From positions 62,001 through 126,000 of the forward strand of contig NZ_JAPFPW010000009.1 of assembly GCF_026155325.1 (NCBI RefSeq): a DNA stretch of 64,000 nucleotides, written 5' to 3'. Source of the DNA: Desulfobotulus pelophilus. Lineage in GTDB: Bacteria > Desulfobacterota > Desulfobacteria > Desulfobacterales > ASO4-4. Of this stretch, positions 6,119 to 14,725 are shown in pieces (position 1 is the stretch's first letter; every line of letters begins with the position of its first letter). Both the position numbers and the translations under genes were made by a program. The notes below the pieces were generated by a model. It saw nothing but the letters and a program-made list of their open reading frames with translations, ran no database searches and was not told the origin of the DNA.

Positions 6119-6159
6119 ATGCCTTGTGTTTTAAGGGCTTCCGTGTAAAAAAGCTTTTT

Positions 6160-6320
6160 ATTCAGGGTGTGCTTGGCACTTGATAGGGAATCCCGTGCAA
6201 ATCGGGAACGGGCCCACCGCTGTAACCGGGGATGTTGTTTCAACGATGCCACTGTCTGCAAAAGAGACGGGAAGGCTGGAACAGCAGATGATCCGGAAAG
6301 TCAGAAGACCTGCCCTGAAT
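6160..6320 (+). promoter_or_regulatory. Adenosylcobalamin riboswitch
   Basis: The stretch carries the core B12-box features in order: GGGAATCCCGTGCAAATCG, then GGGCCCACCGCTGTAA, GCCACTG, GGGAAGGC and finally GTCAGAAGACCTGCC. A P1 helix can be drawn between ATTCAGGG at 6160 and CCCTGAAT ending at 6320. It stands before btuF and very probably represses the downstream uptake operon when adenosylcobalamin is plentiful. The distance to the first gene (about 300 bases) leaves room for an expression platform, though a clear T-tract terminator was not found there. Confidence 0.93.
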
Positions 6321-6622
6321 GGTGTACCCCGGCCTCTTGCGGATCAGAGGGCGGAAAGAAAAAGGATGTTCTGCAAACAATGTACTCTGTGCCGGTACTG
6401 GCTGATCAGGCCTGTTCTCTGGGTCTCGAGGAGTCGTTGTGGCATGGCTGCTGTGGGGCGGTGGCCCCTGCTGTGCTATGCTTTCTCGTGCTCTGAAAAA
6501 GCTTTTGCAGAATCCCGTGGATTTTCCAATACCCCTTCTTTCCTCCCACCTCCGCAAGACCTGTGTATCCTTATTTTTAAAATTCTGAACGGTTGCTTTT
6601 TTCCGGTGTGAAAGCAGGATAT
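6321..6622. other. Long leader between riboswitch and btuF
   Basis: About 300 bases separate the aptamer from the btuF start. A GC hairpin (GGGGC-GGTG-GCCCC, 6455-6468) is visible. A short frame from 6366 with a GAAAGAAAAAGG sequence before it has no recognisable family and is not called as a gene. The region presumably contains the expression platform. Confidence 0.5.
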
Positions 6623-13039: not shown

Positions 13040-13666
13040 CTAAGGCTGGGAGGCTGCCCGTAAAACCGCATGGAGGTCTGCCTGATCCCCTGCCATGCCG
13101 TTGACGTGTTCAAACAGAAGGCTGTTTCCGGGACCGATTACAAAAAGCCCCCCCTGCTGCCAGAGATCTCCGGCACTGCGGCCTTGCCGGAATCCTTCTT
13201 TCATGGCTTTCAACCCACGCATCAGGGGAGAAGGCCCCAGAGTCTTCCAGAAGCTGCGTTTCAGATCAAAGGACCGGTATGCCCCCAGTGCCGGATCCAG
13301 ATACATTTCCCCACGATATGAAAATGTTTCCATGAAGTGCCGGGCATCCTCCGGGGTTCCGCTGCCGATGCTGACCAGTGCCACTCCCGTGCTGTCCAGA
13401 TCCTCCTTGATTTCCATCAGGGCAGCCACCTGCTGCCGCGCAAAGAGTCAGCCATAGTGACGGAGGAATACCAGAACCACTTTCCTGTCCTGCCATAAAG
13501 AGTCCAGCGCTACAGCCTTCCCGTTGAGATCAAAGACAGAAATTGCTGAGACATCAGGAGATGGTTTTCTTTGCATGTTTTCCTCTTTCATACGATGATT
13601 GCGGTCTGTGCAGCCTGCCATTCCTATTATTCCAATGCACACAATCCATAGAACGTTATTTTTCAT
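13040..13666 (-). CDS. Selenocysteine-containing lipoprotein peroxiredoxin (SelU/PRX-like2 type)
   Basis: Two open stretches in one frame are separated only by a TGA at 13448-13450, and homology runs through it: the family pattern FLRHxG-C-xFxRxQ appears as FLRHYG-TGA-LFARQQ. Reading TGA as selenocysteine (residue 73) gives a 208-residue thioredoxin-fold protein. Later family features are VALVSIGSGTPEDARHF, the MYLDPALGAYRSF stretch and DLWQQGGLFVIGPG. A bacterial SECIS hairpin follows the TGA. The N-terminus is a lipoprotein signal peptide (MKNNVLWIVCIGIIGMAGC), so the protein is probably membrane-anchored in the periplasm. The start at 13666 has AAGGA upstream. The usual second cysteine is alanine here (U-x-x-A). 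A peroxide or thiol-redox role is inferred. Confidence 0.85.
13421..13437 (-). promoter_or_regulatory. Bacterial SECIS hairpin
   Basis: On the minus strand the TGA is followed by 10 bases, then a perfect 6-bp stem (GGCAGC with GCTGCC) closing the 5-base loop AGGUG. The loop GG falls at bases 18-19 and the U at base 20 after the TGA, matching the placement and G/U loop feature known for SelB-recognised bacterial SECIS elements such as that of E. coli fdhF. Confidence 0.8.
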
Positions 13667-13721
13667 AACAGCTTTCCTTTTCATGCCGGGATATTGCAAT
13701 GTTTTTTCTGCTTCCTCCTGT

Positions 13722-13793
13722 CTGATACCGCTGGAAAATCGATCTGTGACAAAAAAAAATTTTTGTCACAGATCAGCATTTTTTTTGTATCAG
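13722..13793. repeat. Long interrupted palindrome between divergent genes
   Basis: The core at 13741-13774 is a perfect 15-bp inverted repeat (GATCTGTGACAAAAA and its complement) around four A residues. A second pair of 7-bp arms, CTGATAC at 13722 and GTATCAG ending at 13793, shares exactly the same centre. It lies between the selenoprotein gene (minus) and the sigma factor gene (plus), and eight T residues follow the core on the plus side, so a hairpin or attenuator in the sigma-factor leader, or a shared operator, is possible. Confidence 0.75.
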
Positions 13794-13843
13794 CAATGAG
13801 GAGAACCTGTTGCGGGCAGACGAAAATAAAAGGAGTGCGAGCA

Positions 13844-14725
13844 GTGAAAAATCCATTTAAAGAGATCAGCAACAGCCCGGAGCCGGATCTGCTGCTGGTG
13901 CAGTCCTGTCTGCATGGGGATGGTAAAGCCCTTGAAAGACTCGTTTTACGCCATCAGGCATGGATTTATAATATTGCTTTTAAAATGGTGATGGACCATG
14001 AAGATGCAAAGGATATTACTCAAGAGATTCTCATCCGGATGGTGACCCACCTTGGCAGGTATGAACCGGCAAAGGCAGCTTTTCGTACCTGGCTTTATCG
14101 TGTGGCTGTAAACCACGTGCTGAACATGAAAAAAAAGAGATTTGAAGTGCGTATCCATGATTTTGATACCTATGTGGGGATCATTGAAGCAATACCCGAC
14201 GACAGGTCCCATTCCCATCCGGAAACAGCTCTGCTGGCAGAAGAACTGAAAACCGGATGCATGATGGGCATGATCCTCTGTCTGAAACGCCCGGAGAGGC
14301 TGGTTTTTCTCCTCGGTGGTGTATTTGGAGTACGGGACAGGCTGGGTGCAGAGCTGATGGAGATTTCCCCTGAAGCCTTTCGTAAAAAACTTTCCAGAGG
14401 AAGGCAGAAGGTGAGCCGCCATATGCAGGGTGTCTGCGGTCATGTGGACGCATCCAATCCATGCCGCTGCACGCACAAGGTGAAGCTTTTGTCTGATTTG
14501 GGAATGCTGGATCCGGAACATCTGCACTTCCACAGACCCGGGGGAGTACGGGTGAGGGATCTTATGGGAGAGCGTGTGCTGCGTTTTGAGAAGTCCTATT
14601 ATGATCCGTTTCTGGCCCGGTTTCGGGATCAGCCCTTTTATGATTCTCCTGATATGGCTTTTTGGTTGAACGATATTCTGCAAAAAGATGATTTTTTACA
14701 TCTGTTCCATCTGAAGGCCTGGTGA
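13844..14725 (+). CDS. ECF-like RNA polymerase sigma factor with C-terminal extension
   Basis: A 293-residue protein whose first 190 residues follow ECF sigma organisation: region 2 (ALERLVLRHQAWIYNIAFKM, DITQEILIRMVTHLGRY, FRTWLYRVAVNHVLN) and region 4 (SPEAFRKKLSRGRQKVSRHM). Beyond it lies a SNPCRCTHK cysteine pair and an extra 85 residues of unknown function. The GTG at 13844 is chosen because AGGAG lies 8 bases upstream; a longer frame to 13694 would run through the palindrome. No anti-sigma factor is adjacent. Promoter targets are unknown. It is divergent from the selenoprotein gene, which may be a target. Confidence 0.85.
   Translation: MKNPFKEISNSPEPDLLLVQSCLHGDGKALERLVLRHQAWIYNIAFKMVMDHEDAKDITQEILIRMVTHLGRYEPAKAAFRTWLYRVAVNHVLNMKKKRFEVRIHDFDTYVGIIEAIPDDRSHSHPETALLAEELKTGCMMGMILCLKRPERLVFLLGGVFGVRDRLGAELMEISPEAFRKKLSRGRQKVSRHMQGVCGHVDASNPCRCTHKVKLLSDLGMLDPEHLHFHRPGGVRVRDLMGERVLRFEKSYYDPFLARFRDQPFYDSPDMAFWLNDILQKDDFLHLFHLKAW

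Follow-up and report, generated by a model that had tools for sequence, protein, structure and literature searches.

A TGA-interrupted gene of Desulfobotulus pelophilus very probably encodes a PRX-like2 selenoprotein with a UxxA motif and a predicted lipoprotein signal

The window analyzed here is a stretch of 64,000 nucleotides from Desulfobotulus pelophilus (contig NZ_JAPFPW010000009.1), and all coordinates refer to it. The gene of interest lies on the minus strand (13040..13666), starts with ATG (13666-13664), ends with TAG (13042-13040) and, with one TGA read through, is predicted to encode a selenoprotein lipoprotein precursor of 208 residues; translation could alternatively begin at an in-frame ATG at 13684. 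Its only internal stop is the TGA at 13450-13448, in the context FLRHYG-U-LFARQQ, which represents residue 73 and the first position of a U-x-x-A active-site motif. The original prediction, made from the sequence of the window, had described a single in-frame TGA in an otherwise continuous protein and had expected annotation to yield two broken genes. Both statements held, with the minus strand now added: under the standard code, the region is split into two ORFs of 83 and 129 aa. Residue 76 is alanine (U-L-F-A), confirming the replacement of the second active-site cysteine, and cysteine is absent from the rest of the protein past U73. The N-terminus forms a predicted lipoprotein signal peptide, MKNNVLWIVCIGIIGMAG|C (13610..13666, minus strand), with residue 19 (codon 13612-13610) as the predicted lipidated cysteine. 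A divergent promoter region (13667..13843) separates the gene from that of an ECF-type sigma-70 factor on the plus strand (13844..14725; 293 aa, with a GTG start as drawn), a putative regulator. Elsewhere in the window, a cobalamin riboswitch (6148-6331, 116.4 bits) is located upstream of genes for an ABC transporter and a TonB receptor, an arrangement resembling an operon for cobalamin uptake. The organism possesses dsrA (611 bits), consistent with a sulfate reducer.

By its profile matches, the protein is a selenoprotein of the PRX-like2/AhpC-TSA_2 superfamily and falls under the NCBIfam name 'SelL-related redox protein'. With cysteine written for selenocysteine (Sec), it scored 126.2 bits against NF040769 (cut-off 120), and all 19 of the 19 aligned homologs matched this family too. 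Scored directly on the genomic sequence, TGA included, the value was 117.9, just below the cut-off, because the stop is not scored as cysteine. Compared by profile score rather than by seed motifs, the gene differs from NF040769 in its UxxA motif and lipoprotein signal. The Pfam family PF13911 (AhpC-TSA_2) matched with 72.9 bits (cut-off 27). The AlphaFold model had a mean pLDDT of 74.7, with values near 90 for most of the core 41-130; in this model, the Sec residue follows strand 63-67 and immediately precedes helix 74-92. A Foldseek search placed human PGFS at the top (1.1e-11), ahead of Bcp and ResA types. Prostamide/PGF synthase (PDB 9us9, 9usa; SelU3 lineage) is the nearest solved relative in sequence and fold. 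The cysteine of GLRRFGC in the human enzyme aligns with Sec73, but that enzyme is a Cys protein with a C44/C47 pair, lacks such a signal peptide and shares about 24-29% identity. The canonical peroxiredoxin motif PxxxT/SxxC(U) is absent from the sequence V-F-L-R-H-Y-G-U, which has V at -7 and H at -3. The profile matches support membership in the PRX-like2 superfamily, but the earlier designation as a peroxiredoxin is an inference only and peroxidase activity is uncertain, as the PxxxTxxC motif is missing and the closest solved relative is prostamide/PGF synthase. Selenoprotein L (SelL), which is related by superfamily and family name, has two Sec residues in a UxxU motif that form a diselenide; the protein described here has a single Sec, and U-L-F-A in place of UxxU. 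A peroxiredoxin-like family protein (cd02970/PF13911) with the motif UxxS has been catalogued as a selenoprotein (PMC13188914, PMC9312934), and the 2026 catalogue lists cd02970 with UxxS only (PMC13188914). Our protein resembles that family, with cd02970 compared via PF13911, in its above-cut-off PF13911 score and in a single Sec within a U-x-x-small-residue motif, but has UxxA instead of UxxS and is a predicted lipoprotein.

Genes for selA (620.6 bits), selB (379.3 bits), selD (375.6 bits) and tRNA-Sec (75.4 bits) were all found in this genome above the curated cut-offs. The selD gene (L050:1501-2418) itself encodes a selenoprotein with an in-frame TGA in GUAAK. Since the Sec machinery genes are complete and selD carries an in-frame TGA, Sec is in use by the organism. 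tRNA-Sec was detected in 123 of the 146 related genomes and is common to most of the order, so that its co-occurrence with the gene is no sharp test. Homologs were present in 40 of these 146 genomes, and 42 of 45 matches contained the in-frame TGA. The homologs run on past this codon, and its recurrence in many genomes excludes a base-calling error. We translated 34 sequences, namely this gene, 29 homologs from relatives (L019-L047) and four from a survey of the phylum (L057-L060): all 34, and hence 33 of 33 homologs, have U at the residue corresponding to 73. The three remote matches without TGA have cysteine at this position (GCPLC, GCPLC, ACPLC), as does human PGFS, in agreement with the earlier assignment of the TGA to the catalytic cysteine. 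Judged by dN/dS values 3′ of the TGA of about 0.12 (L018/L019), 0.26 (L018/L020) and 0.08 (L019/L020), the downstream sequence is under purifying selection among the congeners.

The putative bacterial SECIS element (13421..13437, minus strand) is a hairpin with a 6-bp stem (GGCAGC/GCUGCC) that begins 10 nt past the TGA; its apical loop AGGUG (13427-13431) stands 16 nt past the TGA. It conforms to the SECIS rules of PMC13188914, in which 16 nt is the lower limit of the distance. A 41-nt stretch including the hairpin folds at -12.4 kcal/mol, which is ordinary in comparison to shuffled sequences (z -0.33); support for the hairpin is therefore comparative and not thermodynamic. In 27 distinct homologs, a count from which the UPFC-type homologs were left out because their hairpin is apparently placed differently and which thus does not extend over the whole family, 94.4% of the pairs were kept compared to 85.6% in shuffles, and covariation was 0.304 compared to 0.185 ± 0.022, a value reached in 0 of 500 shuffles, with the reservation that the homologs are related and covariation counts overstate independent events. 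All slid versions of the hairpin scored lower than the actual placement. One pair, between position 3 of an Arg/Lys codon and position 2 of an Ala/Asp/Glu codon, was G-C in 14 cases and U-A in 12, with two mismatches. Where the partner codon encodes Asp or Glu, the Arg codon ends in T in 12 of 14 homologs; where it encodes Ala, 14 of 14 Arg/Lys codons end in G. In homolog L022 from the UxxA clade, Ala is changed to Asp and the Arg codon to CGT together. A second covarying pair connects Gln CAG with Ala GCT, and the four GCC cases all face CGG. The paired Ala codon was GCT in 21 of 26 sequences vs. 53 of 394 Ala codons elsewhere in the same genes. Since these sites are mostly synonymous, selection at the protein level does not explain the covariation. 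The SECIS-type hairpin with an AGGUG loop 10 bases past the TGA was thus borne out by the published rules and by covariation. The UPFC-type homologs L037, L040, L042 and L044-L046 apparently possess another hairpin with the loop AGUU about 25 nt past the TGA, and seem to represent a second SECIS design within the same family.

The conserved TGA, the Sec genes and the covarying hairpin make us highly confident that UGA codon 73 would be decoded as Sec via SelB and the downstream hairpin, and that the two apparent ORFs form one protein of 208 residues, in line with the hidden selenoprotein of the original prediction. That a true stop cuts short a former Cys gene, either as a pseudogene or by sequencing error, would fit the split reading frame and the ordinary hairpin energy, but is scarcely credible with the TGA shared by dozens of genomes, low dN/dS values 3′ of it, a covarying hairpin and complete Sec machinery. 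Two separate genes, the second being the 129-aa ORF from the GTG at 13429, are extremely improbable, as an Ala codon (GCT, GCG) replaces this GTG in many homologs, so that the start is not conserved, and as the break would fall within the thioredoxin fold, at helix 1. All these readings were dropped.

In a tree of the 34 sequences, the 15 with UxFA or UMFS grouped together (support 92/95). UxxA also appeared at a second place in the tree (UPIA/UPVA), and UxxA, UxxC and UxxS all occur among the homologs of one family. The PS51257-style lipobox was matched in this protein and its 7 closest homologs, which supports the lipoprotein as a prediction; in the tree set, lipobox signals were present in 8 of 15 clade members vs. 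0 of 19 others. By eye, L058 apparently has an ordinary signal peptide. The combination of alanine at the second site with a lipoprotein signal had been regarded as unusual; UxxA, however, is typical of the clade and not peculiar to this gene. The mature protein is probably a membrane-anchored lipoprotein facing the periplasm. Of its earlier description as membrane-anchored, periplasmic and Sec-only, the last part agrees with the absence of further cysteines, whereas location and anchor are predictions from the signal sequence. We know of no experiment on any member of the UxxA clade. Export of a selenoprotein, formerly seen as a puzzle, is not a real one, because selenoproteins annotated as TonB receptor, outer-membrane barrel, multiheme cytochromes and ABC substrate-binding proteins have been catalogued (PMC13188914). 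A literature search on selenocysteine lipoproteins retrieved nothing relevant. The UxxA clade with its predicted export adds a new form to a superfamily from which selenoproteins were already known. When the clade profile was run against 395 genomes of the phylum, no Cys form was detected at E ≤ 1e-15. Genome G083 contains a second copy, the close paralog L068, with UMFC instead of UMFA and without an evident lipobox near the start; this genome thus has both a lipoprotein UxxA form and a UxxC form that is probably cytosolic. The second motif position is labile, as the UMFC of this paralog illustrates.

The divergent gene product matched Pfam Sigma70_r2 (61.8 bits) and TIGR02937 (64.0 bits, cut-off 42.9) and has a long C-terminal extension containing cysteine. 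The divergent arrangement of the two genes was found here and in both congeners (L019, L020). In congener G002, the sigma-factor match is divided into two parts that lie on separate contigs (L075, L082). The shared intergenic region contains two facing promoter-like sites of the form TGTCACA-N16-GTATCA, one directed towards the selenoprotein gene (13723-13751, minus strand) and one towards the sigma factor gene (13764-13792, plus strand), and together they form a perfect 15-bp inverted repeat (arms 13741-13755 and 13760-13774). The same pattern is present in L019 (two sites) and L020 (one exact site). With a spacing of 15-17, the exact pattern occurs twice in the 3.66-Mb genome, both times in this gap, compared to no occurrence of the backwards control pattern; having been drawn from these very sites, the pattern demonstrates rarity and not function. 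The paired sites suggest that the sigma factor probably drives expression of the selenoprotein gene. Outside the genus, the 1.5-kb flanks of the remaining homologs showed no such pairing, and in most genomes with a homolog of the sigma factor no member of this selenoprotein family adjoins it.

As to function, the following sequence of events would be consistent with the data and is, as a whole, likely. Guided by the hairpin 10 nt 3′ of UGA codon 73, SelB would deliver Sec-tRNA to this codon, and the precursor, with its lipobox-containing signal peptide, would mature to a lipoprotein on the periplasmic side, its production driven by the ECF sigma factor. The Sec residue, in the place of the nucleophilic cysteine before the first helix of the thioredoxin fold, would be the sole redox-active residue of a one-Sec reductase, whose selenolate may attack an oxidised small molecule such as a hydroperoxide. 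The oxidised Sec would be recycled by an external thiol, because the residue able to form an internal bond is alanine. Judged by the fold, peroxides would be the likeliest substrate class, with roughly even chances; endoperoxide, quinone, disulfide or metal roles may also come into question. An action on protein thiols or disulfides in the manner of ResA/TlpA, or a role of the selenolate as periplasmic ligand of a metal or metalloid, is favored by the ResA/TlpA folds among the structural matches, the absent peroxiredoxin motif and the metal-ligand roles suggested for several Sec proteins (PMC13188914). We nevertheless consider it unlikely, since disulfide reductases of this fold have CxxC or UxxC, compared to alanine and no cysteine past U73 here, and by eye no metal-resistance genes were recognised among the neighbouring ORFs.

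An apparently broken gene thereby becomes a real protein. It represents a branch of the PRX-like2 family that has Sec only and is probably exported, and in which the role of Sec without a partner cysteine can be tested in a natural setting. Synonymous sites that covary across many genera back its SECIS element, and the ECF link provides a handle on the timing of the protein's production. That exported one-Sec UxxA lipoprotein reductases stand, in this genus, under their own dedicated ECF sigma factor, whose recognisable sites in the genome drive nothing but the sigma factor itself and the selenoprotein, is a tentative proposal with somewhat less than even prospects. If true, this dedicated ECF regulon would be a self-contained, selenium-based cell-envelope response in a sulfate reducer.
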